From assembly GCF_000003815.2 (NCBI RefSeq), contig NC_049984.1, positions 10,844,601-10,908,600 on the forward strand: a DNA stretch of 64,000 nt, written 5' to 3'. Shown here piece by piece: positions 156 through 61,022 of the stretch. A program made the position numbers and the translations under genes. How positions within the stretch are numbered: the stretch's first letter is position 1; every line of letters begins with the position of its first letter. The stretch comes from Branchiostoma floridae. Lineage: Eukaryota > Chordata > Leptocardii > Amphioxiformes > Branchiostomatidae. Below the pieces are notes generated by a model. That model was not told the DNA's origin and ran no database searches. It saw nothing but the letters and a program-made list of their open reading frames with translations.

Positions 156-1154
156 GGTTACACTCCACTGCACCTAGCGGCGATGTACGGTCATGACCAT
201 ATAGTCAAGCTCCTCATTGATGCATACGGTAAGGGGTTGATTCTGTGACTGACATTGATTTGTGCAGTTGCAAACATGTCAGGATAGAGGTGGCCTAGAG
301 AGGGTCTCTCAGTTCAAGCTTGAACACATTCAGCCTTGCCTTTCTGCCAAATTTCACTCAGTAGAACAAGATCCTGACTTGTTTCACACCCTCCCTGAAG
401 CTATAACAGCCACATGTTTCATGGAGAGGCAAACCTTTCCTTGGAATGTGTCTGGCTTGCAGGGGCATGTACAGAAAAGATGCTGCTGTTAACACATCAT
501 AACCAGGTTTCCGTGTGGAGTGGAGCCAAGTGGAACACACGTTTCAAATGAAGTCCATTTTCCTTCCTTCCAAAAGGGTTTGTCACTTTGTTAGATGGAG
601 ATGTAGTCATGTCTGAAAGGGAACAGTTTCACAGACGTTCGCTCAGTTTTTAACTGGATGAAGTCACGCAATTCTAGAGGACACAGTTGTACAAAATGTA
701 TGAGCGTGTTCCTTAAGAAGTCTTTCTACTGCATATAAGGTCATTTTTGTTTTCAGTTAGGCCAAAACTGTCACAATGGAATGGGTACAGGAAACATTCT
801 CATAAAGGCTCTGATAATCATAAATGCTTCAAAAATGAAGAAAGGCCAGTCCTTTCTTTATGTTCAAAATGTTGTATGCTTTTGTAGTGTTTTCTTCATT
901 ATTGGAATATAGAAATTAACGATACATCTCTTTTAGATGCCGATGTCACAATACGGGACTACAGTGGGCGGAGACCGGGACAGCGCCTGCGGCCGGGGTC
1001 CTCCACAAATGTGGATGAAGTCGTTCAACGTAAGAAGCAGCGCAGCAGCAGCCTCTCTTCTTTCAATCCCCGCCACTCCATGAAAGACTTCAAGGAACTT
1101 GTAACAACCATTGGATCTGCCCTGAAAATGAAGGCACCACCTAAGCACCACTAA
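156..1154 (+). CDS. SOWAH: Sosondowah (SOWAH) ankyrin-repeat protein, C-terminal part, short isoform (5' part lies outside the window)
   Basis: Two coding exons are visible: 156-228 and 937-1154, stop TAA at 1152-1154. The first follows a polypyrimidine tract ending in AG, encodes a classic ankyrin unit (TPLHLAA, then a GHDHIVKLLIDAY helix) and ends in phase 1 before GTAAGG. The second follows TTTTAG and continues DADVTIRDYSGRRPG; the DxxxRDYSG signature just after the last ankyrin repeat is the hallmark I associate with SOWAH family proteins. It then reads through a possible donor at 1030 into a basic, serine-rich tail (QRSSSLSSF) and stops, 97 residues in the window. SOWAH proteins are poorly characterised ankyrin scaffolds; no enzymatic function is implied. 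The gene is best known as the bystander gene of Iroquois regulatory blocks. The family call rests on motif recognition; another ankyrin protein is the alternative. Confidence 0.7.
937..1029 (+). CDS. SOWAH: SOWAH exon, spliced version used by the proposed long isoform
   Basis: Inside the 937-1154 exon the bases after position 1029 read GTAAGA, a strong donor. Cutting there leaves the exon in phase 1 (last base C), which matches the phase needed by the exon at 7418-7441. The encoded part ends ...TNVDEVV and the split codon becomes Q. Seen: donor match and phase agreement. Inferred: that both the spliced and the read-through form are used. Confidence 0.5.
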
Positions 1155-2489
1155 ATTTTCACTCACTGTGTTTGACATTTTTTTGTGCGTATCTGAGATT
1201 CTGACAACTGTTAAGTTGTTGTGAACACCATGGCATGAAGGGAAGGATTAAGTCTGAATGTATCCCACCTCTGAATACTGTTTCACCTTCAAAACCACCC
1301 TTGCACCCTCGTATGAAGAAGCTAGAGCTCTGCTAGACTCTTGTTCTTCAAAGAAGTGGACTTGAAAGCTGTTGTTCATGGGGATTCATCTTCATCAACT
1401 TCTTAAACCTGCCTGTAGATCAGTCTTCTGAGAACTTCCCACCTTCCCCTCATCTATGAGGGTCAACTGTACTTTGTAGAATGTGTTTCTTGTGTTATTC
1501 TTACCAAGGATCCTGAAGATCTTTGAAACTGTGATGGCATTGTGCCGTTAATTCATTGTAACAACAATAGTGAAGGCTGTACGTTTATCCTACCCACCGA
1601 AATTAATCATGACATGCAATTGTGTAATGTAACTTTGGATTGTAAAGTTGTAAGTTGTTGAATGTAAGGTGTGGGGATAAAGAAGTGTAAGTTATTGTAT
1701 CTGGTATTTGTCACAGTATTACTATCTAAAAAGATATTTTGATGCAGGATGTGTTTGTAACTTTCATAAAGCAGTAACAAACTTAAGTAATGAAGACTGC
1801 AATTGGTATAAAAGTTGTCAAAAACGAAACTATAATCTAATCAGAAATTGCAGACAAATGTAAAATTACTGTAACAGTAACAATTTTTTGGAGAGATTTA
1901 CAAAGTTATGTTAAAGAAATCTCTCGTAATACCTTCAATCATGGAAAGGAGAACATGTAAGTGTACAGTTACTCCATTATTTCTGACATTATTAACTCAA
2001 GATGCAATAGTGTATATGGAAATTATTTTGGTGAAGGGTACAATATTAAGCAGGATAAATGAAAAACATCAATATTTTTGACAGAAGTTATGTTGCACTG
2101 TAAAGTAATCATTTTTGGGGAAGGGAAAGTTTGAAGTTTTTTAAGGTAGTTCCAGTTGCCCTGAAACTTGATTTATTGAAGAATTGATGAGTTGTGGCTG
2201 TAGCCTTGGAGGCTGTAACAGGATAAAGCCCCTCCACATTATTACACAGATAAGCATGTTTCTACAGAACTGTGATTACATCTGTTTGGGCCTTTCTGCT
2301 GGGAGATAAGGGCTGCTGGGGGAGAATCAAGAAACAATTAGAAGGAAAACTGTTTTCACAACTTCAATCATTCTTGGTCTGTAGAAGTGAAGTAATGAAA
2401 ATGTATGAGGAGGATGGACGGTCTGGCCAGGAAATCAATGCTCGGCTTCCTGCAAAATCAGCAACGATTTAGACAAACTGAGCTAATTT

Positions 2490-2990
2490 TCCATCAAGTT
2501 TGTGCCGGGGTGATACGTCTTCATAAAGCAGCCGGCGGTTCATAAGTTGGCGGGAGAGATGTGGGTTCGGCGTGCCTCACTATCGATCCTGGTGATGATG
2601 TGCTCTCTGACCAAAGGTGTTGGTGGGCAGATAATGTTGATGTCCTGTCCTGACAGTGAGAAATGGCTGCGATAACTTATCAGTAGTGTTACAATCACAC
2701 CGCTCACCCCCGGCACTGATGGTCTTTAGATTTCAGACTAATGCCAAACGGAATGTGCCGTTACTGGAAATGAGAAAGTCTCCGGCCGCCGCATGCCTGA
2801 ACACCTGCTGATGGCAGAACTTTGGCCGCCTCTCGGCTTGAGCCAGGGAGGAAATTGATTGGTGAAAATTACACAGGGACTGCGAGTCTAGATAGTTGCT
2901 GATTACAAAGGCCGGGTGATATCTACATGCAGCCGTGGTCATACGGACATGGCTGGACAACGGGAGATTATTAACCTTTCACATGTTGGA
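2490..2990. promoter_or_regulatory. Candidate conserved regulatory island
   Basis: A GC-richer, repeat-free block inside AT-rich surroundings. It carries a palindromic GATA pair (GATAACTTATC, 2671-2681) and a SOX/TCF-like ACAAAGG at 2905-2911, plus E-box-like CACCTG within CACCTGCTGATGG. Composition and motif density are all that is seen; conservation is inferred. A long intron of a SOWAH gene is a known location for Iroquois enhancers. Confidence 0.3.
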
Positions 2991-3873
2991 CAAAAAATTG
3001 ATGTGGGCTCCTCCGATCAGGGGAAGCTGGGGACATGGGTTGGAGAGATAAGACATATTTTCTCATTTGCAACCTCATCTTAACATTTTGCAGAGTAATT
3101 AGTTTTCCAAAAGAGAGTGGGATGAGTGAACTGGTTGCATAGTTTAAGAGAACTGACAGAGTGTATTTTTGTATGCTCAGTTTCTTTGCAATATTTAAGG
3201 AAGAAATTGTTGTTACAAGTCAGGCTTGTACTTGTGCAAAATATCCTTACTTCCTTGGAAGTTTGTTCTGTTTCCTGTTTACATGATGGAAACAGACTAA
3301 CCTCCTTGGAGCTGGGGAGCAGTTGTGGAAAGAAATAATGTGTCGTAACAAGACTTTTGATAATAAACTTATTCTGGTAGAAATCTCATAGGTGTGTCTG
3401 TAGTCCATGTACACTGTCCTCTCTCATCAAGCTGTAAAGCTCTGTTCTGCACCAAAGGGTTTTCAATATTGGTGCCCTCTGAGATCCCAGGGATTGTCTG
3501 TTGTCACCTGTATGACCCCATGGGTGTGTCTCTTAATGTGTGTGCCCACCTCCCTATCACTACTGAAACACCTCAGCACATCGCTGTTATTAGTTGTGGC
3601 TGCAATAAAGCGTTCCAGTCCATGTAAGAGCTAATATGTGTGTGTATGTTGGGCCCAGGGCAGGCTGGTCATCACCCTGTCAGACCTGTGACAGTGATGG
3701 AGCAGGCTGCCTTATCTTTACCTGTGGGGCCTTGTGTAGGCATGTTGTTTCCTCTTACTGTGCTAGAATTGGGACATGTGGGGCCTTGTGAAACAATGTT
3801 TTACCTGACACTACAGGTTGGTGTGTGATACCCAACATGGACTGTCCAACATGGTGTCTCACCTTTTCTAAAT

Positions 3874-4196
3874 CAGGCCATCTGTCCACATGTGGTTCAG
3901 GTGATCTGTCCACCTGTGGTATAGGTGATCTGTTCATCTGTGGTTCAGGTGATCTGTTCACCTGTGGTTCAGGCGATCTGTCCACCTGTGGTTCAGGTGA
4001 TCTGTCCACCTGTGGTTCAGGTGATCCGTCCACCTGTGGTTCAGGTGATCTGTCACCTGTGGTTCAGGTGATCTGTCCACCTGTGGTTCAGGTGACCTGT
4101 CCACCTGTGGTTCAGGTGATCTGTCCACCTGTGGTTCAGGTGATCCGTCCACCAATGGTTCAGGTGATCTGTCCACCTGTGGTTCAGGTGATCACC
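3874..4196. repeat. 24-bp minisatellite, 13 copies
   Basis: Thirteen head-to-tail copies of a 24-base unit of the form CAGGTGATCTGTCCACCTGT + GGTT, one of them 23 bases long, followed by a half unit. Variants are single-base changes (CCATCT, GATCCG, TTCATC). Because 24 is divisible by three the array stays open in several frames and yields spurious repeat proteins on both strands; the 23-base unit shifts the frame midway, so no gene is proposed. Confidence 0.95.
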
Positions 4197-6589
4197 CCCT
4201 GACATTGATGGAGTGCTGCACCTTCTCCTAACCTGTGAGTGGATCTCTCCCACCTCCACCCTTCCTCCTCAGGGTCCAGCCTGTTGCTTCCTCCTGCTGA
4301 CCTGCACAATCCCTCTGTGAGCTTTATCTCCTTCCCTCCCAGCGATTCTCACATCACAGGCAATCTTTCACCCATCTTTGTCATCATCTGTTGTGGAGCA
4401 ATTGCTGCCCTTTATCATGACCGCCTGTCACACCTTTCATTGATTCTTTGCGGTTCTGACTGCCCAGGTAACTGGTGGTGTAGCTGTCGCCCTCCCTCCC
4501 ACCAATGCACCCTTCATGCCATACATTATAATTGCATGCCTTGTGTTTGGTGGTCAAAGTTTTAGCCTGATAAACATGCCAGCACACAATGAGACCGCTT
4601 TTGCATGAATTTTGGTGCTTCACATATAACAATCATCTCTCTGTTTGGGCTCCTGTGCTAAGGTTTTGTCTAACATTTTCAGTTGGTGTGGTGGGGATAT
4701 TAATGCTACATCATTGGCAAAAACCCATGACGAACACAACTTTTCCTCTCTACTTCTTCTTGCCGATTCCAAAGTCTTTTTTCAAGAGATTGATTGGACA
4801 GCAAAGCAATCTCATTTATCCACATATATGCCATATATACATTATCCAACTTGCCTTTGCAGTTGTTAAGCCCCTGTCATATGTTCAGAACCACGACTTC
4901 TCCCACTACTTCCCAACTACGGTTGGGTCTGGGTTTGGAGTTAAGGCCAAAATCCTATTATAGCTCCAGTTTGCTCCTCTGATCACATCCAAGCAGAATA
5001 AGACTTAACTAACTTTGATTGAATGTTCAAAATTCATACTCAGTCGGTGCTGACAAGTTTTAAAGATTAGTAGGCAAGCTTGCTGACAAACCTCAAACCA
5101 CACAGACAGAGGACCTTGCTCAGGACTAACTACCTGTGGTGATCTGGAGGAGATTGGTAGACCATGGTTGGCTATGTGTGACAGGAGCTTAACCCAGCTA
5201 ATTTGCATATTAAGAGAACTGCCTCTGACATGACTTTTTTTTATAAAAGAGTGCATAACAGTTTCATTTATGGACAGCTGTGCTGTTTTGAATGTGTTGT
5301 AAAGCACAAATGTGCTTATAATTTTGTACCATATACAATGTACACACCAACACTTACCATACTAAAACCCTTACACATTACAGTAACACAGCAAGCAAGA
5401 CCAAATGGGTAGAGGAATCATATTAATCATTTTGAAGAAGAACAAACATTTTTAACATCTCGATGAATAAGATCCCTTTTTCTCTGACAATGAACACTTA
5501 TAAAGTATCAATACCTTTCAATGACTGAATGAGGGTGAGATTTTATCATATTAAATGATTTTGTAATAAGATTTTGTAACCTACGCTCAGATTTTGATAT
5601 CTGGATGTCAAATTTGATATCAAGGACTCGAACTCCACCAGCACCCATTCCATTCACAGATCAAGTGTGCAGCACCACAATTGCCTCTGTCTATCAAAAA
5701 CACAATAGTGGGTTGCTAAAGTACTTGTAACACTTGGTTTGATCACCAGTGACCTTTGATTTCAGAACAAAAGGCAGTTGGTACAGAGTTGAACTTCAGT
5801 TGAACTTTAGGATCACTAACAGAACCAATATACTCCATGAAGATAATGCACGCTGCCAAATATTGCTGAAATTTTCTGTCAGGATCAGTTGTAGTACGTT
5901 TCAAGTGAATGTTATGACTATATTATTTTAGTTTTTATTAAAGATTTTTTTGGGTAAGACTACAGCTACAGTCCTTGGGTAAGTCGTAAATCTGACCTCA
6001 AATCTGTTTTAACTTCCGAATTTACAATTTGATCAGTTTTACGTCATTAATTTCAGTGTTTTGGATAGACCGGGGTGATATTTTTGTTCTAACAAGCAAT
6101 TCGACCATTGAATTGAATGAAGGTTTAACACAAAGAATATTCGCTGTTAGATTTATCATGTAGCCAAGTGGACTGGCGTAGGGTTAATTAAAGTTGTGGG
6201 TTGATAATACCAGAATGATTGGAATGTTTAGATGCTGAAGTTTTAACTGGTCAAGGAGTTAAAGTTCATATTTGATAATAATTTTGTTGAATATGTAATA
6301 TACTACAGGTAGTTGACATAAGGATTAGGCCCAAAGACTTGACTTGGACTTTGGCTCCCAGGTCATTGAGCATAATTGTCCTTCTTGCAGTTTGACTGTG
6401 ATGGTCCATCCTGTAGCAGTGATATGGGTAAACAGCCTGCTAATCCCACAAACGCCAGCACATCAAGAAATAACAGGACTCAAGACAAATTACCGGCATT
6501 CAAAAAACAAGAACGATCAAACATAAAAACATGGCCTGTTTTTAGTGAAACAAGTTTACAGAGTAGTTTGCAAAACAACTTCAGACAAT

Positions 6590-6900
6590 AGCTTACTGGA
6601 ATGACCTGTGGATTTATTTATGATTTCTGGCGGAATGTCTTAAGGGACGTGTTGTCATAATACATGTACAAGGGAACAGGGTGTAGTAAATAGGCAGCGA
6701 TTTCTTATCGATCAATTTATCTTCATTCTCATAAAAGGGATCTAGCTTGTAGATAAGCAGCATTGTGCCTGTTACCCAGGGACGAGCTGTAGCGTCCGTC
6801 TGTCAGATTACACCCCAGTCTTGCTGTGTCATGCTCAATTATTCATAAGACACTGTTTATGGCCTACTTTTCGATGAAGAGAGGAGGGACCTTCTCACTT
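6590..6900. promoter_or_regulatory. Candidate regulatory island
   Basis: A compact block with closely packed transcription-factor-like words: TGTGGA near 6608, TTATCGATCAAT (Onecut-like ATCGAT/ATCAAT) around 6706-6717, TTATTCATAA and TTTATGGCC near 6840-6865. It contains no repeat and no coding signal. Function is inference only. Confidence 0.25.
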
Positions 6901-7417
6901 TGACAGAACAACCATAGTCATACTAGTATATAAGCTATTGTCCAAAGTTGTTTTGCAAAGTACTCTGTAAACTTGTTTCACTTAGATATGCAGTGTTTAG
7001 GTCATCCTTGTTATGAAAGCCTGGTAATATGTCTGATCTACCTTTTGTACATTTTGTTCCTGCATTTGTCATTAATCAGGACAATGTTTTTTCCTGGTTG
7101 AATTACAGCAAAAGACATAAATACAAAGAATGATGATGTAATAAACTTATGCTTTAATATTCTTTTATTGCATCATTAACATATCTGCCAAGCAAAAGTT
7201 TTATGGTAAGTCACATGTTGCTACTTGCAAGGTGTTTCAGAATTAATTTTCATAATAATTGTGGTGCTGGTAGCATGAATATGGGCAATCCATGTCATGG
7301 CACATACAATGTAAAGGCCTATACTTGACAATGTAGATGTTATATTTGGGCATCTTCCATCTTCCCTTCATGGCCGTACTTTCAAAGTTGTAACCTCTGT
7401 TTGTTTTTCCCCCTCAG

Positions 7418-7441
7418 AAAAACTGCATGTGGCAACAAAAC
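7418..7441 (+). CDS. SOWAH: SOWAH 24-nt mini-exon (long isoform)
   Basis: A 24-base exon between a very strong acceptor (TTTGTTTTTCCCCCTCAG) and a perfect donor (GTAAGT). It begins needing one base and ends phase 1. From the donor at 1030 it reads Q-KLHVATK-Q into the next exon; from the ankyrin exon at 228 it would also be in phase (E-KLHVATK). Such a short exon would be missed by most gene finders. Supported by splice sites and phase, not by a known domain. Confidence 0.5.
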
Positions 7442-15868: not shown

Positions 15869-16050
15869 AGTTCAAGTGGGCTCGTGGGAAGACACAGCAG
15901 AGGAAGTCGTCTGTACCAGCCATATTCCAGAGAGGCCTGTCCAGGGACACCATCTTCGCTCAGGGTGGGAAGACCCCGCCCTCCACACCAGAGACCACAC
16001 CCCCAGTCCTCAGGAAAGACTCTTCCCCCAGCATGCTTCGTAGGGCATCT
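15869..16050 (+). CDS. SOWAH: SOWAH long-isoform exon, basic Ser/Pro-rich tail
   Basis: Acceptor TGTACTTCCAG and donor GTGAGT bound a fully open frame of 182 bases, entered in phase 1 and left in phase 0. Landmarks are FKWARGKTQQRKSSVPAIFQ early and LRKDSSPSMLRRAS at the end, with PPSTPETTPP between. Two basophilic-kinase-like sites (RKSS, RRAS) are seen. No domain is recognised; it looks like a disordered, phosphorylatable tail. Coding status is strong from splice sites, open frame and codon content; assignment to SOWAH is inferred from strand, phase and lack of another upstream gene. Confidence 0.7.
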
Positions 16051-17318: not shown

Positions 17319-17395
17319 GCCTCGAAGGTCATGCCTCCGCCAAAGTTCCCGGCACCCAAGACCAAGAAGAAGGATAAGAAGGACAAGAAATCCAG
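17319..17395 (+). CDS. SOWAH: SOWAH long-isoform exon, lysine-rich
   Basis: Acceptor CTTCCTCCTTTTCAG and donor GTAGAT bound 77 coding bases entered in phase 0 and left in phase 2. It encodes ASKVMPPPKFPAPK followed by a run TKKKDKKDKKS. The lysine cluster could act as a nuclear localisation or membrane-binding stretch; that is inference. Splice phases join both neighbouring exons exactly. Confidence 0.65.
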
Positions 17396-21915: not shown

Positions 21916-22261
21916 TAAGAAGCTCCACCTTAAGATTGGAATTCCGTTTTTCCCATTTTGAAATGTGCTAATATTTTCAATATAAAAGCACTTGGTGCAA
22001 AGTCTTTACATATGATTGACAAGTATGATGTACAGTTGTGAAATATGATAATAACTTTCATGAATATTCATTTTGAAAATTTTCTTCCTGCAGGAATTCC
22101 TGCAGGAATTCCTGCAGGAAGCGTTTTTCCTGCAGGAATTCCTGCAGGAAGCGTTTTTCCTGCAGGAATGCTGCAGGCATTCCTGCAGAAATTCCTGCAG
22201 GAGAAAGGTAAATTCCTGCAGGAAGAATGTTTCCTGCAGGAATTTCTGCAGGAATGGCCTT
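21916..22261 (+). mobile_element. PstI-palindrome element, copy 1
   Basis: A 346-base element whose second half is made of 12-bp palindromes TTCCTGCAGGAA, with 12 CTGCAG sites. Its first 170 bases are single-copy in style (TAAGAAGCTCCACC onward). The whole unit recurs inverted at 31,370-31,695 and both copies stop at the same bases, which fixes the ends. The palindromes keep open frames on both strands (PAGIPAG, LQEFLQE); these are not genes. Confidence 0.9.
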
Positions 22262-27460: not shown

Positions 27461-27464
27461 TTTT

Positions 27465-31369: not shown

Positions 31370-31695
31370 AAGGCCATTCCTGCAGAAATTCCTGCAGGAA
31401 ACATTCTTCCTGCAGGAATTTACCTTTCTCCTGCAGGAATTTCTGCAGGAATGCCTGCAGCATTCCTGCAGGAAAAACGCTTCCTGCAGGAATTCCTGCA
31501 GATTCCTGCAGGAATTCCTGCAGGAAGAAAATTTTCAAAATGAATATTCATGAAAGTTATTATCATATTTCACAACTGTGCATCATACTTGTCAATCATA
31601 TGTAAAGACTTTGCACCAAGTGCTTTTATATTGAAAATATTAGCACATTTCAAAATGGGAAAAACGGAATTCCAATCTTAAGATGGAGCTTCTTA
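31370..31695 (-). mobile_element. PstI-palindrome element, copy 2 (inverted)
   Basis: Reverse-complement copy of the element at 21,916-22,261, 326 bases with 11 CTGCAG sites. Almost all differences are in the number of TTCCTGCAGGAA palindromes, which accounts for the 20-base length difference; the unique half is nearly identical between copies. Sharp ends and high identity point to recent activity. Confidence 0.9.
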
Positions 31696-41650: not shown

Positions 41651-41654
41651 CCAA

Positions 41655-42608: not shown

Positions 42609-45600
42609 ATGACTGATGACGGGTTTGACCACATCCCAGTGAGGGATGGACCACAGTTCCAGAGGGCAGGGGGCATGGAAAATGGTAAGTCTCGGATAGA
42701 AATACTGAGGACCCGAGCTCAGTCCCAGGGTCAGCTCAGCTTGGATATGTTGTAAGGGAGTGCATTCGTCTTGCAAGGGACGTAAAATGGGGGTCCTGCA
42801 GAAGACAGAACAAGAATTTTTCCAGAAGTTTTCAGTTTGTGGTGAAAATGTTTCCAAGATCATTAACCCCCCCTCCCAAAAAAATGTCAACATTTACAGT
42901 ATTCCTCTCTTCCATTTGCAGAGCCCCCTGGCCAGATCCAGGTGAAGCAGCGCCAGATAGTTGCCCAGTTGAACCGGGATGAGTTGGAAGATCGGTACCT
43001 GCGGCTGTACGAAGAGAACATCATCCTAAAGAGACATGGGCGCAAGCAGGAAGATAAGATTAAGCGGTATGTTCTGTAGCTACGCATGTTGTTAAAACAT
43101 TACATGATATATAATCTTTGTTGAATAGAATTGTTCCAGAAGAATAGCTTCTGTTGGTCATCTAGGATGATTGGTAAAGATATTAAATGTTTCATTTTGT
43201 GTCTCCTTCTTACTAACTACAGGATGGCAACTAAGCTTCTTCGACTTGTCAATGACAAGAAGAAAGCTGACCAGCAAGGAGCTGCTCGTGGTGCTGCTAG
43301 GCCAGGTTTGTGCATCTAGAACTGGCACTTAATTATTTTTGCTACTGTATCTAGATTGAAGTAGTTCACAAAGAATCTAAATTTTGGATCGCTAGTTTTG
43401 ACTTTTTGGGTACTTGGATACTTGGACACATAATTTAGCCCATTAGTTATCATAATCTTCCTGAACTTCAAGACCTAAAAAACACCCTGCTTCTTTTTGT
43501 CATTACGTTTGCCATTGCTACATTTTGCATTCGTTGAATTTCTCACACGTCTTTCCAATATAGGTGGCCCTGCAAAGCGTGGAGGCAGAGACATTGAAAC
43601 AGAAGAAATGCTTGAGGAGCTGCATGGAAAAATAAGGGACCTGGAAAAAGAGAATAGATTGCTTAAGGAAAAGGTGAGCAAATAGAAACACTTTAAGGTT
43701 TTATTTTAAGAGCATAAAACAGTTGCAATAAAATGGTTTGTATAGAATTTCAGCAGGACTGTTGTACTTATGTTATTGGAGAGTTTGACAAAGATGTATT
43801 TGTGCTTTTCAGGTGATGGTAGCTAAACAGCAGTTGTCTTCCCAAGGCAAAAGGCATACACCTTATACAGGTGTACAGTCAAGAATCAATACTGTAAGTA
43901 TGAATGTCAACTATTCAGAGTCTATTCCACACTATTGTAACTTACTGTCAAGGTGTTGAATGGGAAATATTTGCAGATCCATTGCCTCCTATGTAATCTC
44001 TAATTGCCTGTGTCTACTGTATATGTAGGGCATCAAGAAAGTAGGCCAGATGGTTGCTGTACAACAGAGACTGAAGCCAGGAATGAGGGTACAGGGACCA
44101 GAGGATGTCAGGTCAGTCATCTGTGGTTACGCTATGTGTACTCCAAACCTAGTGTCATTCACTGTTTTCAAGCTTATAAGGTATCTGTATGTTAAGGGAA
44201 AAGGTTCCATAGCCTTATGAGACTGTACAGGCAGTGGGTCTTAGGCATGGTATTGGAAGGATCAAACTCTTCCTTCTTCTTTCACCATATTTTTACCTCC
44301 CCAACCAAAGTCAGGTACCTACCTTTATACCTTGGTGGAGTGAGGAAAGTTGTGTAGAGCCTACTAGAGGATGTCAAGCCAGTAATGCCAGGAATCAAAC
44401 CTCTGACCTGTCTATCTCTCATCTGCTAGCCTAGCCATAGGCCATTCAATGTCATGCACGTAATGGAGGGATTTGTATTTTGCTCACTGCAAACACATGC
44501 ATCTGAGCCATAGAAATCATGTTCTTTCAATATTGCATGTTGCACCATTCTTTCATTTTCTTGTATAACTGTACAGAAGACTATAGAGTAATTTTTTAGC
44601 TGAGGGAATATATACTGAATTTTCTTTACATTTTGTTTTTGCTCTCGCCAAGTCTGGCAATGCTAATGGTGTTTATGAATCCTTGAAAAATTTTGGTGGT
44701 AGCGTCAGAAATGAGATTGATCCTGGTACCCTCCTGCTTTCAGGGCAACCTCCCGGTCCACCCAGCCGAGCGTCCTGCCGCGGTACGGCCACAGCCTGCT
44801 GGAGGAGGCGCGGGAGGAGATCCGCAGCCTGGAGGACCTGGTGTCCAACCTGCAGGACCAGATCAGGGACCTGGAGGGGGAGACAGACATGCTGAGGGAG
44901 CAGATGAGACTGAAGGATGCTGAACATGAGGAGGAGCTGCTGAGGATGAGGGAACAGATGGCAGCTGGACAGAGGTGAGGGTTTATAGTCAAAACTGCCC
45001 CCCTCCCCAAAAAACAGTCAGATGGACCAATAAAATCTGGTCTATGTGGACAGGTGGTCAATGTAGATTTTTAATGTTTGTATCAATGGCAAAAATGTGG
45101 TCACATTTGCCATATAGAGTTGATCATATGTACAGAATTGACTTTAACATACAAGATGGAATACAGGTGTAAAAAAACCTCTGCTAGTAGCCATCCCAGA
45201 CAACAGAACGTGGGGAGGGAATATATATACATATCATGTAAAATCCAACGCGAAAGGTGAAGGAAGTATGGTCCTTGATTTTATAGTACCAGTAGTTATA
45301 ATGTGCACTATGGTTTTCATCTCCAGGGGGAGCATTCAGGAGAATGTGGACATGATCAGGTTACAACGAGAGCTGAAAGAAAAGGCCACAAAGCTCACAG
45401 CCATGCAGGCCAAGTACACCAACTTGGAGGAGGTCAGTTCTGTACCGTATCTTTGAACCATCTATTGTTAAAAGGACTCAGTGTTTCATTGTTTGGAACT
45501 GAAGCAGAAGAGAAAGAAACTTACCTAAAACAAAATGTTTGCTTCTATGAAGATACATACATACACATACATTAAGGTAAACATGAAATATTTGCTTGAA

Positions 45601-49719: not shown

Positions 49720-52700
49720 GTATGCATGCATTAATGTCAGTCTGGTACAAGACAACAGTGTGGTATCTAACAGTTTTCCATTGTAGTTTTCATGCATCTC
49801 AAAAATCCCACATGGTCTATATAGATTTCTAACCTTGTAACTGTGTTAGTTTTAATGAAGGGCTGTATACTAGTATCTGTTTTATTCTCATGATTGAAGA
49901 AACAAAAGGAACCTTTGAGATGTGTAAGAATGGTACTGTGTTGTAGAAGCTTAAAGTTGTGCCAAGGAACAAAATGTAGTCTTGTCAATGCTCACCTTAA
50001 GTGCACAGTACTGGAAAAGGTCGCTGTGTTCCACTGTTCATGCATGCAATACTTGTCAAAAATATCTAGGGGAATTTCCCTGGTACATCTATGTACATTA
50101 ATTATTTTGTAAATAGTAAAAATTGCCTTTGTCTTCTTTGTCACAATCAGTGGAGCGATATCCTTTCAATGAGCTGAACTGGTTTGATATCAACTTTCTT
50201 AACGCCCGTCCTACTTGTTTTGACAGAAACTAGAGAGACAACTGAGGGATGTTGCGTATGGGACCAAGCAGTACAAGCTGAAGCCTACTGAAGAGGAGGA
50301 GGAGGAGGAAGTAGAGGAGATAGATGAGACAGTACATCTGGAGAGGGGAGAGAACCTCTTCGAGATCCATATTATCAAAGTGAGAGCAATGTTATAACCT
50401 GTTCTTATCCCAAAATGATTGATGTTAAGACAGTGTGATAGATTTAGCAAAATATAGGCATAGCAAGAATTACAGAATAGCTACAGTAACTGCAATACAA
50501 TCTTCAAATCAGCAAAGATTAAGTCCAGTAATTTTACATAAAGAATTGGAACTATCGTTATTAGGGATTCAATCACAATACACATGCATTGTATAATTAT
50601 GTATACTGTACCTTTCCTTTTGCCCTTGTTAGGTGGTGCTATCACAGGAGGCCTTACACCACCTGGCAGATGTTGAGCCATCCCTGTTCTGTACATACGA
50701 GTTTTATGACTTTGAGCTGCAGACAACCCCTGTTGTCAGAGGTGCCAAGTAAGTACAATGTCAAGAACTGGTAGTTAGTACTGCCATAAAAATGGAGGTA
50801 TTGTAATATATAATAAGTGTGTGAGTTTGTTTGTCTTGGTGTGTGTCCACAGTTACCTGAATATTGTAGAGTGGCAGCCTGCCAGGATGTAAGATGCAAA
50901 TGGTGAAATAGGATACTTGAAGAGTTAAAAGTCCGGTTTGGCGCTGGTCCAGTGTTGTAGACAGGCAGGAAGTGATGATGGAGCAAGTGGAGCATGAATT
51001 GATAACTCATGGCTACACGTACACCCACACAGTTACATTGTGCATGACTGTCAGGTCATTGGGGGTACCTATTTAGAGCAAGTCACAATGATGTCAATTG
51101 TACCAGGTTCTTGTTACACAATATTAAACATCTATGTTTATCCTATAGTCTTTTTGCTACCTGAAGAAATTTTTATCTCAGGTATCGATCATCTCAAGGT
51201 CTGAAAATGAACTGTTCAAATGCAGATGTTCTGTTGTTTTCAGACCAGAATTCAAGTTTACTTCGAAGTATATCGTCAAAGTGGATGACTTCTTCTTACA
51301 CTATCTGCAAAAGGTGAGCAAACTTTGTGGGATACTATGAGTACAGATTCTTCACCAGTTTTCTTTATCAGTATAAAGAAAACTAACTAACTGCACCTTG
51401 TCTTTGTTACACTTCATGTCTATAAGGCCTAGTCATTTGCTACAATCACCAAATAAAACCAATGAGTGAGTGAAGCGAATGAGGTGGTTATATGAGTTAG
51501 TTATAGCAAATGATCAGATCTTATGAGACCATGCATACTGAGGAACAGTTGAAATGGAAGATATCAAGCAGTTACAATGTATAACCACTAAGCATCTAGA
51601 ATCAAAGTATGATAAATGTATATCAACAGTGATCACTGTCAAAACTGTACTTGTATGACACTTGTGAATACTGTGCTTGAATCAGACATCCACTCTAATA
51701 TCCTCCTTGATCTGTAGGAGTCTACGACTCTTGAGGTACACCAAGCTATGGGTCTGGACTACACGACATTAGCAGTCTGCCAACTCAAGTTTAGGGACTT
51801 GCTGGACAAGCCACAGGGGAGAATATTCAACACAACATACCTGACTAGTAAGAAAGAGAAGAATTATCACACTGCTATACAGTCTAGTAGTTTATCTGTA
51901 GAAGTGACATATATGCAGCAGTCTAGAAATAGGTACAGAGAAAATGTGTGAAAATGTCAACTTGAATGCTGTTTCATGTTTTTGTTGCTTCATTAAAACT
52001 GGTATAGATCAATTGGGAAAATGTAGTAACCGGCAAGTCGTTGGAATGCTTACTAAATGTTCTGTTTGTGTTAGGTCCTGAGGGGGTTAACTTTGGAACA
52101 GTGGAATACTGGATCCGACTGAGGGTACCTATGGACCAGGCACTCAGACTATTCAAGGTTAGGGTTCAAGGTTATTACCTTCCCTGCCATGGTGGCAAGG
52201 ATAGTTTTTTTCAAGAATAACACTGTCAGCTTGTAATATTCTAGTGTAGTGTAAAGTAAGTCTTTTCCAAATTGTTGCGCAAATGACAGGCCAAGTGATT
52301 GTGAATTAATTAGTCTCTGTTTCCAAAAAGACTGATCTATTTTACACGAAGGTCTTTTTTTCTTCTGGATTTTGATAATATACAGTATTCTTCTCTTTTT
52401 GTGGCCAATTTTCCCTTAAACTATTGCAGGAACGGACCAAGGCTCTTGGGTACATAGCAGCCAATGAGAGAGCTACCCAGCAGGCCTTGCAGGTTCTGGA
52501 TGAGTCCACTGCGCCTCGTGCCAAGGACAATGTCAATGACCTTCACATCAGGGTGGTCAGATGTTCTGACCTAACTGCAAGAAGAGATGGTATGTTATAT
52601 CAAATTGCTTCCAGTTCCTCTTTCTGTACGAATCATTACCCCCACCATGAAGGTTATTTTTAGATGCCGGTTGTTTGTCTGTGTTTGTTTCAGTTCTGTG

Positions 52701-55700
52701 CGCATGTGTGTTTCTATGTTTGTAGACATCATAACTTGAAAAGCTGAGGAGCTGTGAAGAATGGATCAAGTTTGATAAAGGGCCTCCTAGTGGCTTTATA
52801 CAACACTGCAGCAGATCCTGTTTCAATAGTGTCCTGGACATGCTATGGACTTTAATATTTTTAGTGGTAGATAAATCTTGGGACAGGGAGTAAGTGATTT
52901 AGGTTTGGACTCCTAGTGTTTGTTTTTTAAGGCAGGGGCCAATTGCTTTGCAAACCTAATGGTGGAAAGATTTGTGTGCTTTTCTCAGTTCGACAAAACA
53001 AACATATGTCTCTCTTATTTTCACAGGAGTTCAGCCCAGCCCCTATGTGGTGTACAAGTTCTTTGACTTCCCTGACCACGACACAGACATCATCATGTCC
53101 AGTAGTTCACCACAGTTCAACGACCACAAGACGTACCCTGTACCCATGGACATGCAGCTGGACACTTACCTCAAGTCTGCTGTAAGCTCTCAACTTTTAC
53201 TGTGCACATGTAGTTTTTGTATACATCTGTAGATTTTTTGTTCGTTTTTATGGGGGACTGAACAAATGTATGTGCTATGTAGATATAGGATATCAATCCT
53301 GAGACAAACAACGATAAACTTGAAGAATCCTGTCCTTAGGGACAGGTTGACTTCAACTTTTTATATTGTGATACACATTGACATCCAACATGCCTGCATA
53401 CATGTTCCTAGACCCTCCTACTTACCTTAAAGGGAGCTTTGGAGATAATCTTATAATCACAATACATGTACCTTCCAATCTTAAAACTTTCTTTATCTTT
53501 TCATTTCTTTTCTGTATTGTCTGATTAGTATTTACAACATTCCCACAAGTTGTTCATTGCTGTATTTTGTGTGTTTTTCCCCAGCATCTGGAGCTGTATG
53601 TATTTGATGACACAGACCCTGAGGAGACAGCCTACCTGGGCAGGGCCAACGTTCCTCTCATCTCACTAGCACACGACAAGGCCATCAAGGGGGTCTTTGA
53701 ACTCAAAAGGGTGAGGTCCTTGAGAAGTTCTTTCTGCTGTAACTCTTTTGTTTGTTTGTTTGTTTGTTTGTTTTTTGCCAAATGGGGTAGGGAATTTCCT
53801 GAGCAGCCTCGTAATCCCTGCTTCGCCTATTGGATCAGTTAGTTGAGCTTGCAGAAGTCCTATGTTTCTGACTTATGGAGAAGAGATGCTGCCACAAGGC
53901 CACTGTAGAATCTTTATACATTTTTACCTTTGTTATTTCTTATTTTGACTTTTGGTCTATTAAACAATATGCATAATCTATCAAACAGTCTGACATATCT
54001 TATCTAATACTTTGTACCCAACTGATGTGTGTTGTCCCCATAGACTGACAACAGTGTGAATGGTACAGTGGAAGTCCACCTGAGATGGCAGTATGCCTAC
54101 CTGCCACCACCCATGGCCAGTATGACACCTGAGCAGGTCAGTACATACATTTTTAGTCTTTATTGCATTATCACCATGGCCTTTGCCAAGATAAAAGGCA
54201 AATGGGAAGGCATGGTAGAACAGGAATAATTTCTTCTTTTCTTTAGCTTTATCAACTATAGAATGATTGCTAAGAATGATGAATTGCATCAGATGAAGTA
54301 GATGTGATGATAACAAAGCTAAGTAGTAGGTTACGCGCCAAATAGCAATTACTCAAGCAACTGTATGTGTACAATTTTGGAAATGGTCAGACGTTTCAGA
54401 TAACATCAGTCATCTTTCATGAATGTTATCTGAAATGTCTGACTGTTTCCAAAATCATATCCAGTTGCTTGAGTAATTGCTATTTGGCATGTCTTATTAA
54501 CTGGATGTCTAACCTTCAACAACATACATTGTAGTGTGTTGTTTCATTCGATGTTTAAGCAGAACATGTCTGCCCCCCTTCCCCAGGCTGCCGCTGCCCC
54601 TGGCATGGTCCCTGAGAAACCCCTGTTACTGCCAGGAGAGGAAGAGAAGCTGGCTGCTGCTGTGCCCCCTGCAGCCCTGCGCCCCATCCCTCCCTCTGTC
54701 ACACCTGCATCCACACCTGGGCACATCACCCCACCCACTGTACCTACCCCCAAGGTATGTCACAACAGTTTTTTTCAAAAGTTTCTGTATGATCCCTTTG
54801 TAAAGATGTAGTAAGGTATACTTGGTATTCTTATTTCTGAGTAATTCTGAGCCATGTCTGTGATCTATGCACATAAGGAATGCAACACAGTGTATTCTAT
54901 ATATGTCACCCAAGGTACCAGCCCGACCACAAGAAGGCTGGGACCAATACTAGTGATGAAGAATACACTGTGCTGTTTTTTGTATCATGCTCACCCAAGA
55001 AACACATATTTTTATGCAAAATGTGGCAGAAAATGAAAAAAAATTGGTGTCCTCCAGAAAATTTGTAAACTAAGAACAGCAAGTCCATTGTATGAATCTG
55101 GTATTCACATTTTTGACAGCTGTCCATGTGAAGTGCGTTTGAATCATTCTATGAAAGCCTGTGGGGTACACTCATTTAAATTCCAGTGAGATATGGAATG
55201 GTCTATAACACCCGCAGACCAGGTATATGACATAAATGTACTTGTATTTCAGGTTCCATCAGCAGCTTCTACCCCTCGTACAATATCACCAGAGCACCCT
55301 CCATCTGTGGTTGTCTCACCTCCGGGCTCCAAACCCCCCTCCCGACCAACCAGTGCCAAAACTCCATCACGTCCGTCCAGCGCTAAGACGGTGTCCAGAC
55401 CGTCTAGTGCAAAAGTATGGCATGATTTCTTTTGCAGCTCGTATCAAATGTTCAATAGTTTGTTACTCATATTGAAGGAAATAGATATAAACCTCCTTTC
55501 ACTGAAGTGTATACTGTGAACACTCTTGGTCATCAGGATTAGGGGTTTTACCCAGGTTTGAATCCAAGCTGCTGTTGATTCATTTGTAACAATGTTTTTC
55601 CCAATAGGGGAAACATGCTGTGTATGTTATTTGTCTACTTCTTCTGCCATGAACCAGTCAGAGATTAGAACTGCCAGTAACAACAGCATTACATCTGCAT

Positions 55701-58700
55701 TATATTAGCTGTACAGTAATTGTATTGTAGGCCAGTAGCTTGATGAAATGCTACAGGGAAAACATTCTGCATTTTTGCAAAAATGTTACTTTTCTACTTG
55801 AAATGTTTTTTTGCATGTTTTTGCATCGTAGAAACTTGTGATATGCTTGGCAGTAGCCATTTCAAATGGAAATGACTCTTTACAAGAGATAAGTCTGTGG
55901 TGCCTACAGCCAGTGTAAAGGTAAGAAGTATGTTTCATATCTGGGCTGTTGCTGTTGTTCATCTCCAGTCTATCCCGGAGGCCAAACCTCCACCATCCCC
56001 GAGAACAGAGGCTCCCAAACCTGTGCCAAGAGCAAGACAACCAGTGGTCCCTGAACCTAAACCTGAACCTGAACCTGAACCTGAGCCTGAACCTGAGCCT
56101 GTTGTTGATGATGCAGAGGAGAGCAGCTCTACTGTGTCTGTTACTCCTGATTCAGCCCAGGGAGAAGAGGAGGAGGTATGTATATGTTAACTGTTGTTTG
56201 TCACTCCCCATTTGTTTGCAGTAACACCCAACATAGTGTAATAGCTAAATGTGTGTCTCCATAGTAATATGATTTTCCATGTTCAGAGCAATGCAGATGC
56301 GTACCCTTCTTTTACTTTGCCTTGCTTTGTCATTTACATGTCTCTTTTCATCAATAGTGGCAGACAACTTTTGTGGAAATCATTTTGTTGTCTTCCTATT
56401 GTTGCCATGCACTAGGACATTTTCATTTCTAGGTTGTACATACAACTGCGCTAGACAGTTCTTTGTTTGCATCATGTTAGCTAAATATCAAACGTTCACA
56501 GTCTCTCTCTGAGGAAATGAAACGAGAAGAACTTGACGAGACCACTAAACCAGAGTCAGAGAAAGAGGAACAGGTACACATGTGTACACTTGTCTGTGTG
56601 TCTTCTTTCTACAGGTCTTCATGTGTGCTCTCAATAGGATAAACTGTTTTGCTCTCTAAATTAGAGGGAAAACCAATTTATTACATTTGAATTGTTGATT
56701 CTGCTCAATAGGCCTTGTTCTATTTGCCTGCTCGGTAGTGTAGTCTCCCTCTGGTTTGACTTCACTTCTATTATAACTACAATGAGTTTTGATATGATCT
56801 CTCCAGATACTAAACTTAGCATTAAGCTTGTCATTATCATTTTACATGCTTGTCATTTGTCTGCTATTGGGATGCATTAGTGATTGCTGCCTGTGCTCTA
56901 CTTAGGTACAGTAGTAGTACCAGTATTGTGGTAATTCAAATCAATCAAATCAGTATAATGCTCCACAGTGGAACCTTGTTGTTGATCTGTCTTATGTGCT
57001 ACATGTATATGTTTGTGTGCTGCAGCTTGGGAAGACAGAGCCGATTGAGGACACAATGTTTGAGGAGAAGCCAAGTAGTGACATAGAGGAGGACATTGGT
57101 GGGTACAGAATAAAACCTTCACAAGTTACCACTAACTGTAAATGCGTGTTTCAATTTTGTGACAAGGAGAAAATGGAGAAAAAGTTTCCGATATTGTTGT
57201 AGTGTACTGTACAGTTACTGTAGTGGAAACATTGGTGGTTTCACAAGTTCACAGTGAACACGTCACCAGAAAAACTGCAAACATAAAACCACCCAAAAAT
57301 TTCAATAATTGCAGTAGAATGTTCATTTGTATGTAGATAATTGTTGTGTACCAAAGATTTCTGTCAGTGTAACTGCTACTGAACTATTCGTACACACTCA
57401 CAGATGAGCCCAGCTCTGAGGAAGACGATGTGGTCATGCCTGCAGCTCCTAAGAAGAAGGAAGAAGAAGAGAAGGTGGACACAGATGTCAGTGAGAGTCT
57501 AGAGTCAGACTCTGATGTGGTGATGTCCAGACCAGCTGCCACCAGACAGACTAGTGCTTTAGCAGATGTAAGTACATGTACTTATTATATATTAAATGGT
57601 GTCTACCTTTATTACGATAAGGGGACATGTATTTTTCTGTGACAGTACTACAGTACTGTAATTCTTAATTTTTTGAGTTGGTTTTATGTTTGTGTTTTTT
57701 GCAATGACTGCTAACCACAAGCTTACATGATGTAGAAGTACTAGAACTGGTGTTTCCATTACTATGTAGTATGTGGCTATCGCAAACTTATAACCACCAT
57801 GAACACTACTAAGTTTTCTCTCCAAGATAAAATCACTGCAGACTGAGTTGGCCTTTACAGTACCTGCTTGGAATAAGAATGTTGTACAATTCTTCCAATG
57901 TATAAAACATTTTAGTATTATCTCTCTCAATGGCTAATGGGGACTTAACATTGCGACTGATAATCATAAGATGTAAAGATGACTCCAATACAGCCTAGCG
58001 CAGAATTGTCAAGGTGGCAAAACCTCCAGAATATAAGATGAACTTGTGTGATAGTGCATGCTATTCTAACTTTTAGGAAACAGATCCAGATGACGATGTG
58101 ATCTTTGGTGCATCTTCAAGTTGGTCTACAGATAAACAAGTCTGTTTTGTAGTATTCCGATTTTCCCTTTGTTTGTGTTTGTTGGTGGGAATTGGTGTTG
58201 ATAGTGACATCCGTGTTCACAAATGTTTTTGGTGGGTGCCATGGGCTTACAGGTGTGTGTGTGTTGGGGGAGGAAGGGATTTGAGTTGCCCCATTTTAAC
58301 ATGAAATACTTGTTGGTTGTGTCATCCTTACATTGTTATCTTAAGGTTCTATCATGGCCGTCACCAGCACCCATTCCTTTCCCAAATAATCCATAGTCAA
58401 ACTTCAAAGACTGCCCAAAGTTGTTAGATTAAGTTTGCACTTTGTTTATTCCATGGTGATTGTTTGGTGAGGTTTGACATTTTGGGGTAAGGACATGCCT
58501 TAGTCTTCAAAATCAGAGTTGCAGCTTTTTCTCACAGAATGACATTTTGAATCAGGGCCTTACACAGAAGGATGGAGATGACACTGATGAGATGGAATCT
58601 GACAGTGATGTTGTCATGTCTATGACACAATCACTTGGACAAAGCCTGGGGGTTTGTGTGTTTATGTAGTCATCCTATATCTCAGGGTAAAGGTTTATGG

Positions 58701-61022
58701 TGTATCTACCGGTTATGTGTACAGAAATCATGGATGCCTAACATTTCACATTCTGATTTTTGCATTTTTCATAAGTTTTGTACATTTTCACATAGTTCTT
58801 TTTTTTACTAAAATTTGAACAAATTTCATCAAATTTGTGTGAATAGACTGGTACAAATCTATTTCAGTAGGATACTCTTTTAGTACTACAGGTTAACCAT
58901 AGGAACAACAGTGGTGAGAGGGTGCATGCTTGGTATGTACCATGTAGCACTGTACTGACATGCCCTGTAGAAGGGTGCCTTTTTTCACAGAAAGTTTTGC
59001 TGACTATTCTAGATTGATACTATTAAGAAAACAATATAGAGATTAATATATGTTTCTGCAGCATCAACATACTGACAGGACACAGTGTGCATGTACAATG
59101 TAGTGTGTTTCTAACCTGATTTGCATGGTACTGACATGTAAGAATTATTGGTAAATGTTATCCCTCACAGGCTAACAACATGGTGACAGTCACCATATTT
59201 GAGTTCCAACTGAATGGTGGTGCAGCAGTGTTGGATGATGGGAATGTGCGCATGCTGTTTGTGGAGTATCGGTTCCTGGGTCGGCCGCCAGAGGAGACGG
59301 AGACGCCGTTCTCCCTGCCCAAACCCTCGCGGCCTAACCAACCCATCAAGTACAACTTCAGGAGAGGTATGTGGGGAAATGTCACGAGGAAATTCTATGT
59401 TTTTTTGCCTAGGATCAGTACTATTCTGCCCTTTATCAACTTGGCCATGTCAAATCAGCCCAATAACGTTGCTACCTCGGCCCAGCACCCTGGTCAACTA
59501 AATTAAATCAGTATAATTAGGGCACATCAAAAACCAATTGCTGCTGTATAAAGCAACCCAACCTTATTGCCCATTTTAATTTGATTGCTGCAAGCCTCTA
59601 ATTTCCCCACCCGGTCCAGCTGTTTGTGGAGATGCAAAAATAAAAGTACAATGCAAAGATAAATACACAATGCACAATAGATAATGCATATGACACTTTG
59701 TGTGATTTGTTGTCTTTTATAGCATAGTTTTCGTTCCTGCAAAATGCCTGGCCAGGTGTCGGTTTGGAAATGTGGAAATGTATGTGACCTTAGAATAACT
59801 CTGTTCTGTGTCCTGTGTGTTGCAGTGTTCCATGTAGACGCTGAGAACAATGAATTGACCAGAGACTATCTCATCAGCATGCTGCTACCTGGGGACCCCT
59901 CTCAGGGAAGGTGGGTACTGCAGAATTACAGTTTCATAAATAAGAACATTGTAGCCTCATCCTTTAAGGATAAAAAGATCAGTCCATTTCTTACAGGCAC
60001 GATATACTTGACGGTTAGGTTTTTGGAGCCTAGATATACTGAAAATGTTATACATGTGTTGAAAACACAGCAGTGGACTTGAAAAGGACTCTGAGGATTA
60101 TTCATAAAATGTTAGTATTCTCCATCATTGGCATTTGCATATGCTGTACATGTATTTGTGTGTGTTTGCAGGATCAAGTTCACAGTAGTGAATGAACCTG
60201 AGGATGAGGAGGGGGAGTGTGCTGACATCGGACATGCCTATGTGGACCTCAAACAGGTGGGTTTATTTTCCAGGTTTTCACAGTGATCTCATACATTGAA
60301 ATCACGACATTGCAGGTATGCATGTGTTTTTTTACACTACAAATCTAATATACTGAGAAAATATCTTTATCCTTCTGCTGCAAAATAAAGCAACAGCAAA
60401 TTTAAAGTAAATGCACTTACAGTTATATTGTGTAATGATGAGATAAGGAGCCATCTGATAATAAGGATAACATATATTTTTTTCAGACATTCTTGAGTAT
60501 TTTAAGTTTGTCCTTCATATTCTGCAATATTATTAATACCTCACCACATGAGTTGTGAACCCAAGTGTAAATGTTGAATGATATATAGAAGATTATACAA
60601 CATGCATTTGTAGCCAAAATTTTGTGAGTATGCAACCCAGTTCAAAACTGTAGTTTTGTATTGTTGATGAGGAAAATGTGCATAATCTGTTTGTGCCTTT
60701 CCAGATCCTGGAGAAGGGAGCAGATGTGGTGGAACAGGACATAGATGGTAGGTTAGGATTCCATAGTCGCTCAGTGGATCAGAAATTTAGCAAGATGTGG
60801 ACTGTGATTCGGTCACATAACAAACAAAGTATGTGTGCCAAAAAGTTCAGCTGTCTGAATTGCACATGCTCTACTTTGGTCAAAACATATTGCCTTTCTT
60901 TTATTCCAGTTGTTGATGTTAATGATGAGAAAGAGGTGATCGGTGCCCTGAACATAAGTGTGGAGGCACTGGCAGCTCTGAGGGCAGTACAGAGGGAACT
61001 ACCAGCTCTGGAGGAGTCCTGA
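42609..61022 (+). CDS. RPGRIP1L: RPGRIP1L / fantom (nephrocystin-8), complete, 38 coding exons
   Basis: RPGRIP1L is a scaffold of the ciliary transition zone (NPHP1-4-8 module), gating cilium content and supporting Hedgehog signalling. Joined exons give 1,450 residues against about 1,315 in human; the excess lies in the linker. Order: coiled coils (about 25-600), C2 (about 606-745), C2 (about 793-925), acidic/proline-rich linker (937-1277), RPGR-interacting domain (1278-1450). All junctions keep phase and have GT/AG borders. The start is the first in-frame ATG (42609-42611) in exon 2; stop TGA at 61020-61022. Stretches such as [30 protein letters not shown] and LLDIRAARI match the vertebrate protein. 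It is probably the pre-duplication ortholog of vertebrate RPGRIP1 and RPGRIP1L. Introns not listed separately show nothing recognisable. Confidence 0.95.
45756..46293 (+). other. RPGRIP1L intron with unidentified repeat-like segment
   Basis: The middle (about 46,010-46,250) is GC-richer, with short inverted words (GGTTGGAAGTCCTCCTAGGA), and open on the minus strand for 75 codons. It looks like a transposon fragment but I cannot name a family. Confidence 0.3.
46691..48386 (+). other. Longest RPGRIP1L intron (1.7 kb)
   Basis: AT-rich, with no exon recognised. A near-palindromic pair, CCAGCTGTGCATGTGCAGTTGCGATG at about 46,964-46,990 and TGACTGCACATGCACAA at about 47,093-47,109, suggests a degraded foldback element. 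Confidence 0.35.
50227..52157 (+). CDS. RPGRIP1L: RPGRIP1L first C2 domain exons (18-22)
   Basis: Exons: 50227-50379, 50633-50748, 51244-51313, 51718-51847, 52075-52157 (residues 575-758). The first still carries coiled coil ([19 protein letters not shown]), then an acidic run of seven Glu, and then the C2 start [13 protein letters not shown]. Further C2 landmarks are [34 protein letters not shown] and [17 protein letters not shown]. The Asp cluster needed for calcium in classic C2 domains is not evident, in line with the calcium-independent C2 domains of this family. Confidence 0.94.
52430..54136 (+). CDS. RPGRIP1L: RPGRIP1L second C2 domain exons (23-26)
   Basis: Exons: 52430-52589, 53027-53181, 53585-53710, 54044-54136 (residues 759-936). 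The first opens with [20 protein letters not shown], a linker helix, then [11 protein letters not shown] starts the domain. Landmarks are [72 protein letters not shown] and [15 protein letters not shown]. This is the best conserved segment and the domain through which vertebrate RPGRIP1L contacts nephrocystin-4. Confidence 0.95.
54137..54586 (+). other. RPGRIP1L intron carrying a foldback element
   Basis: Apart from splice sites this intron is mainly the palindromic element at about 54,335-54,520, described separately. Confidence 0.6.
54335..54520. mobile_element. Foldback transposon, copy in RPGRIP1L intron
   Basis: Arms run from CCAAATAGCAATTACTCAAG at the left to CTTGAGTAATTGCTATTTGG at the right, with a second paired segment TTTTGGAAATGGTCAGACG / TGTCTGACTGTTTCCAAAA and a central GATAACAT / ATGTTATC. 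An unpaired 3' tail (CTTATTAACTGGATGTCT) follows. The same tail and arm design occur at 63,538-63,715. Confidence 0.75.
54587..58651 (+). CDS. RPGRIP1L: RPGRIP1L proline-rich and acidic linker exons (27-34)
   Basis: Exons: 54587-54754, 55253-55414, 55969-56175, 56502-56573, 57026-57098, 57404-57567, 58077-58139, 58538-58651 (residues 937-1277). Exon 27 is Ala/Pro-rich; exon 28 ends in three RP(S/T)SAK repeats; exon 29 holds a long PE dipeptide run; exons 30-34 are strongly acidic and contain four copies of an acidic-hydrophobic motif (EDDVVMP, DSDVVMS, DDDVIFG, DSDVVMS). Nearly all junctions are phase 0, so exons can be skipped without frameshift. The human linker is shorter. Exact exon membership is less certain here than elsewhere because there is little conservation to guide it. 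Confidence 0.85.
55415..55968 (+). other. RPGRIP1L intron with a possible 27-nt micro-exon
   Basis: Positions 55894-55920 read SVVPTASVK in phase 0 between AAG and a perfect donor GTAAGA. The acceptor side lacks a pyrimidine tract, so inclusion is doubtful. The rest of the intron shows nothing. Confidence 0.3.
59171..61022 (+). CDS. RPGRIP1L: RPGRIP1L C-terminal RPGR-interacting domain exons (35-39)
   Basis: Exons: 59171-59366, 59826-59910, 60172-60256, 60705-60747, 60910-61022 (residues 1278-1450). The domain starts [20 protein letters not shown], then [32 protein letters not shown], and [16 protein letters not shown]. It continues [40 protein letters not shown] and ends in [20 protein letters not shown]. 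The layout matches the C2-like RPGR-interacting domain of RPGRIP1/RPGRIP1L. The 43-base exon at 60705 is small but fits phase on both sides. Confidence 0.94.

Follow-up and report, generated by a model that had tools for sequence, protein, structure and literature searches.

Introduction

Linkage of Iroquois (Irx) homeobox genes to a multi-exon ankyrin-repeat gene, CG10632, which we take to be sowah, underlies the Iroquois-Sowah genomic regulatory block that Maeso, according to papers citing that work, reportedly described in 2012, and the linkage is proposed to be held by regulatory regions shared between the genes. A stretch of 64,000 nucleotides from the lancelet Branchiostoma floridae, hereafter the window (positions 10844601-10908600, plus strand, of contig NC_049984.1, here C6), carries the 3′ end of a SOWAH-like ankyrin gene followed by a gene of the RPGRIP1/RPGRIP1L family, and is compared below with that block and with the human IRX-FTO-RPGRIP1L region. 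The Irx-Sowah linkage itself is already published: Irx and CG10632 are linked in most bilaterians, with mention of Branchiostoma in that connection (PMC2674049, Kerner 2009), and the block and its break-up in tetrapods are summarised in later papers (PMC5803294; PMC5585340), one of which places Iroquois elements within the tetrapod remnants of Sowah (PMC5803294). The lancelet locus resembles this block in that a cluster of Irx genes is linked to a multi-exon ankyrin gene, but differs from it in being extended beyond SOWAH by RPGRIP1L. Before vertebrate genomes were duplicated, RPGRIP1L very probably already belonged to the Irx block, because in the lancelet it lies two genes away from Irx and four more gene families of human 16q12.2 are found no more than 1.2 Mb from Irx.

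The action of an intronic enhancer on a distant gene has been much studied in the FTO-IRX3 region. In human 16q12.2, RPGRIP1L adjoins Irx territory with its 5′ end toward Irx, as it does in the lancelet, and relatives of RBL, CHD, SLC6A2-type and LPCAT-like genes occur in both regions; the lancelet differs in that FTO was not found and SOWAH occupies the FTO slot, that the SLC6 and LPCAT relatives lie on the RPGRIP1L side, and that the CHD-RBL pair is 1 Mb off. FTO and RPGRIP1L, which are divergently oriented, share a human topologically associating domain (TAD) with IRXB (PMC4671217), and AKTIP, CHD9, FTO, IRX3, IRX5, IRX6, MMP2, RBL2 and RPGRIP1L are listed, with other genes, under one cluster of conserved elements (PMC3436827, table).

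Amphioxus chromosomes keep 17 ancestral chordate linkage groups (PMC7269912), and the Irx-SOWAH-RPGRIP1L array is like them in the retention of ancestral gene content at chromosome scale, but concerns the finer level of gene order. Neither "irx" nor "iroquois" occurs in the available text of that paper, irx, sowah and rpgrip1l do not occur in the main text of the amphioxus functional-genomics paper (PMC6292497), and there is no mention of RPGRIP1, Ftm, fantom or FTO in the text of PMC2674049, although flanking genes are named in its Figure 6. Among the papers searched we found none that places RPGRIP1L in the Irx-Sowah block before vertebrates, though figures in key Genome Research papers may show it, none among those listed that names sowah, irx and rpgrip1l together, and none joining FTO, amphioxus and IRX3; the literature that joins amphioxus with rpgrip1l consists, by title, of cilia reviews.

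Irx, SOWAH and RPGRIP1L on one lancelet contig

Gene order and homology were read from one lancelet genome (513,431,437 bases in 431 contigs), with the human layout as the comparison; nothing in the gene content contradicts a lancelet origin. A genome-wide search with Homeobox_KN gave 20 matches, the top three of which are on C6, at 10790277 (-), 10714460 (-) and 10671205 (+). They score 67.5-70.2 bits over 40 of 40 positions, Pfam supports their homeodomain, and all three have the same homeodomain stretch, presumably one typical of Irx. The preliminary description, drawn from the window, had suggested a possible ancestral Irx neighbourhood, one that the lack of Irx genes in the region would have contradicted; the three Irx genes on the contig lie upstream of the window, at distances of 54-173 kb. 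The order on C6 is Irx(+), Irx(-), Irx(-), SOWAH(+), RPGRIP1L(+): SOWAH is divergent from the Irx gene nearest to it and starts about 15 kb away, and RPGRIP1L, the next identified gene after SOWAH, starts about 96 kb from the Irx cluster, two genes away and with its 5′ end facing Irx. In B. lanceolatum, too, a three-gene Irx cluster (IrxA-C) is found on one chromosome (PMC9673378).

The coding span of the second gene of the window (+) starts with a proposed ATG (42609) and ends in a stop at 61022, and the RPGRIP1L name first given to it holds at the level of the RPGRIP1/RPGRIP1L family. The exons over its first C2 domain (50227-52157, +) include one at 51718 that matches PF11618 (C2-C2_1) at 34.7 bits against a cut-off of 29.2, and those over the C-terminal RPGR-interacting domain (59171-61022, +) match PF18111 (RPGR1_C) at 43.9 and 27.2 bits against a cut-off of 22.9. 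Eight fragments of the gene were compared with Pfam: three pass the threshold of either C2-C2_1 or RPGR1_C, another two have C2-C2_1 matches that fall short of it, and the other three are unmatched. Among structures in the Protein Data Bank (PDB), the best match of the joined exons is 2yrb, "Protein fantom" (RPGRIP1L; E=2.6e-53), and 4qam_B, a structure of RPGRIP1, is matched at E=1.2e-24. A search of the genome with the RPGR1_C profile gave a single match, at this locus, so that vertebrate RPGRIP1 and RPGRIP1L most likely have this one unduplicated lancelet gene as their common counterpart.

The SOWAH-like 3′ end noted earlier likewise holds, being made up of two exons joined in phase: an ankyrin-repeat exon at 156-228 (+; GYTPLHLAAMYGHDHIVKLLIDAY), with AG/GT ends and a Pfam Ank score of 36.6 bits (cut-off 21.1), and the last coding exon at 937-1154 (+; DADVTIRDYSGRRPGQRLRPG...MKAPPKHH*), which ends in a stop at 1154 and, searched alone, matched no Pfam family. 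Further exons lie outside the window at C6:10806610, 10810063, 10813261, 10818081 and 10839020, the first of them the start exon, which carries MADYEFSFDGVKQFIADRGGRVRNVELVTHFRQHL and was located through a motif ascribed to the N-terminal SOWAH winged-helix domain; the gene, multi-exon and intron-containing, extends over C6:10806610-10845754. Its joined ankyrin exons score 61.4 bits with Pfam Ank. When the joined query was searched against the genome and 150 of 267 candidates were scored, exon 937-1154 was itself the top match, the first four of the 27 matches were exons of the gene, the remaining 23 reached no more than 35.2 bits, and SOWAH was a single locus among the scored candidates. The name, a probable one, follows from the way the domains are arranged, from the gene's divergent place next to Irx and from the linkage to Irx already published for the ankyrin gene CG10632. 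The preliminary description had allowed that the ankyrin gene might not be SOWAH; its build and position are those expected of SOWAH. An identical reading, VRLEAGHSPGEGSLLIAGHYEQQEKGEFTRL, probably a dispersed repeat, occurs at C6:10655073-10655165 (-), before the Irx cluster, and at 10811756-10811848 (+), in the SOWAH locus.

Other gene families of human 16q12.2 near lancelet Irx

Five families of human 16q12.2 were searched for genome-wide, and four map no more than 1.2 Mb from Irx, FTO being the one not found. The SLC6 search (SNF; 82 of 320 candidates scored) gave at least 103 matches in the genome, of which those on C6 form a single locus at 11118876-11125532 (-). Compared with PDB, which among the SLC6 copies of the genome was done for the C6 copy alone, this gene matches the dopamine transporter at 609 bits, SLC6A2 at 597, SERT at 543 and GlyT2 at 474, and is of the dopamine/noradrenaline-transporter type (SLC6A2/3-type). 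Of eight genome matches to Acyltransferase, one is on C6 (11158363, +), where 33 kb separate it from the SLC6 gene; Pfam assigns Acyltransferase only, and IFPEGTCTNRSCLI within it is, we assume, of LPCAT1/2 character. The BRK search gave four matches at three loci, one of them at C6:11934592 with two BRK domains, in a CHD6-9 gene (11928397-11936627) that matches PF23078 at 120 bits and whose BRK exon matches CHD7 in PDB at E=1.7e-8; one exon of this gene had no match in PDB, though PF23078 matched. Six matches to RB_A fall at two loci, one of which, C6:11960331-11963508, holds a gene of RBL type (RBL1 253 bits, against 123 for RB1), with the CHD6-9 gene 24 kb before it on the same strand. The order and strands of human CHD9 and RBL2 are similar, and human SLC6A2-LPCAT2 and SLC6A3-LPCAT1 are neighbour pairs like the one in the lancelet.

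Under random placement anywhere in the genome, the chance of lying this near to Irx is 0.0006 for RPGRIP1L, 0.0015 for SLC6, 0.0017 for LPCAT, 0.0096 for RBL and 0.014 for CHD; with the same contig granted, it is 0.011 for RPGRIP1L and 0.011 to 0.088 across the markers. For SLC6 and LPCAT, the C6 gene is assumed to be alone of its type, and, with markers that are non-independent and were picked as human IRX neighbours, all of these serve as guides and not as a joint test. Since RPGRIP1L in the lancelet stands beside SOWAH and Irx, and other relatives of chromosome-16 genes lie on the contig, the human IRX-RPGRIP1L neighbourhood looks older than vertebrates, and the preliminary proposal, by which the Irx block included RPGRIP1L before vertebrates arose, agrees with the three Irx genes on the same contig, with the place of RPGRIP1L two genes from them and with the four 16q12.2 families nearby. 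The linkage of RPGRIP1L with Irx, present in the lancelet and in human, is well supported for chordates.

The same proposal had given the FTO-RPGRIP1L-IRX layout deep roots, and that part is unsupported, because no FTO Pfam domain matched in the genome: FTO_NTD (PF12933) had no candidates and FTO_CTD (PF12934) one, below the pass level, a result that, with no control-genome match beside it, is not proof of absence. A comparable profile search does recover the RPGR1_C exon in the same genome. SOWAH is found in the place of FTO, and the deep layout appears to be Irx-SOWAH-RPGRIP1L without FTO.

What may have kept the genes together

Our reading, to which we give a probability of roughly 0.6, is that the window is the far edge of an Iroquois genomic regulatory block, and that the last common ancestor of lancelets and vertebrates would have carried Irx-SOWAH-RPGRIP1L, kept together by Irx enhancers. 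SOWAH and RPGRIP1L would most likely be bystanders in this block, and breaks between Irx and RPGRIP1L would have been selected against because Irx enhancers, as proposed, sit in SOWAH introns and perhaps also in the 41-kb gap that separates SOWAH from RPGRIP1L. In the vertebrate IRX3/5/6 copy, SOWAH exons would then have been lost, with FTO now between IRX3 and RPGRIP1L. Regulatory constraint would, on our analysis, be the most likely cause of the linkage. Several points weigh against this reading. Conservation is judged from one lancelet genome and the human layout; the CHD-RBL pair is 1.0 Mb from RPGRIP1L and 1.1 Mb from Irx; and human SLC6A2 and LPCAT2 lie across the IRX genes from RPGRIP1L, whereas the lancelet SLC6 and LPCAT-like genes are on the RPGRIP1L side of Irx, the segment having therefore been rearranged. 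TERT, which lies near human IRXA, gave matches on C15, off the Irx contig, and SOWAH owes its name here to build, place and published linkage rather than to a match with a family model.

The array might instead be plain conserved synteny, a product of slow rearrangement and inertia in lancelets, with enhancers holding Irx and SOWAH only and RPGRIP1L outside the Irx domain. The preservation of 17 ancestral chordate groups in amphioxus (PMC7269912) fits such inertia, as does the fact that unrelated pairs in the segment, SLC6-LPCAT-like and CHD-RBL, have also stayed together; yet RPGRIP1L is the first identified gene beyond SOWAH, is 96 kb from Irx where CHD-RBL is 1.1 Mb away, and in human shares a TAD with IRXB (PMC4671217), and we regard inertia as a possible but rather unlikely explanation of its place. 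That RPGRIP1L reached Irx separately in lancelets and in vertebrates is far less probable still: the comparison covers two lineages, lancelet and human, the genes of the 1.3-Mb segment stand in another order than in human, and the position of TERT could be taken as agreeing with coincidence, but four of the five 16q12.2 families searched for map no farther than 1.2 Mb from Irx, no match at all was found for the fifth (FTO), and the orientation of RPGRIP1L relative to Irx is the same in human. Most improbable of all is that the genes are misnamed, the ankyrin gene not being SOWAH or the second gene being merely a C2-domain protein. The N-terminal part of SOWAH, when joined, matched no Pfam family above cut-off (DUF4351, 13.4 bits against 25) and nothing in PDB better than E=0.017, which weakens the name, and no SOWAH model was found in the Pfam copy searched; set against this are the fantom structure as top PDB match of the second gene, the ankyrin gene's multi-exon build, single locus and divergent place beside Irx, and the linkage of such a gene to Irx in most bilaterians, described with mention of Branchiostoma (PMC2674049).

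If RPGRIP1L already had its place, two genes away from Irx, when vertebrate genomes were duplicated, the regulatory territory may have had its outer limit before FTO came to lie in it, which would make FTO a latecomer to a landscape that was already present; Irx contacts in the lancelet would then be predicted in SOWAH introns and in the 41-kb gap. A more tentative idea, one we think doubtful, is that successive tenants have occupied one ancient regulatory slot, the Irx-RPGRIP1L interval: SOWAH, its introns bearing Irx enhancers, would have filled it in the chordate ancestor, and in the vertebrate IRX3/5/6 copy, once SOWAH exons had gone, FTO (not found in the lancelet genome and proposed to have been horizontally acquired) would have taken over both the slot and the enhancer territory that now carries obesity variants.

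The interval between SOWAH and RPGRIP1L

From the SOWAH stop at 1154 to the proposed ATG of RPGRIP1L at 42609 the gap measures 41.5 kb (1155-42608), about double the 21 kb or so of the preliminary description; examined by scans of open reading frames (ORFs), codons and GC content, it is a candidate regulatory territory. Twenty of the 41 ORFs of at least 90 amino acids that lie within it were given to Pfam, and none matched at E 0.01. The codon and splice-site scan yielded one candidate two-exon gene end, with an exon at 15869-16050 (+), supported by codon score and splice context, and a phase-compatible one at 17319-17395 (+), which encodes a lysine-rich C-terminus followed by an in-frame stop just 3′ (...KKKDKKDKKSR*). 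The two are unique in the genome, belong to no Pfam family and have a best PDB match of E=1.9; they may represent a short, uncharacterised gene.

Islands of regulatory appearance had been remarked on in the gap. Seven GC-richer patches are present, chosen as 500-bp windows with GC of at least 0.48, a selection by GC without a control, so that they are descriptive only; peak CpG observed/expected is raised in six of the seven (0.63-1.04, against 0.38 for the whole gap), which lends the remark slight support, and falls to 0.17 in the seventh (3455-4654), which holds a 24-bp minisatellite. That minisatellite occupies 3873-4193, with 13.4 copies of the 24-bp unit, and two related TTCCTGCAGGAA arrays form minisatellites at 22085-22202 and 31379-31526.

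Genes downstream of RPGRIP1L

Tail-to-tail with RPGRIP1L lies an oxygenase gene, whose last exon is at 62890-63069 (-), which matches Pfam DIOX_N and 2OG-FeII_Oxy and which extends beyond the window to C6:10912510. An Fe/2OG oxygenase thus adjoins RPGRIP1L as human FTO does, but it is of another family and in another orientation; its identification as FTO was rejected in view of these matches and of FTO domains that are unmatched genome-wide. Farther downstream, at C6:10928151 (+), an exon matches the carboxylesterase family (PF00135, 83.4 bits), which is a large one; CES genes are also found near human 16q12.2.

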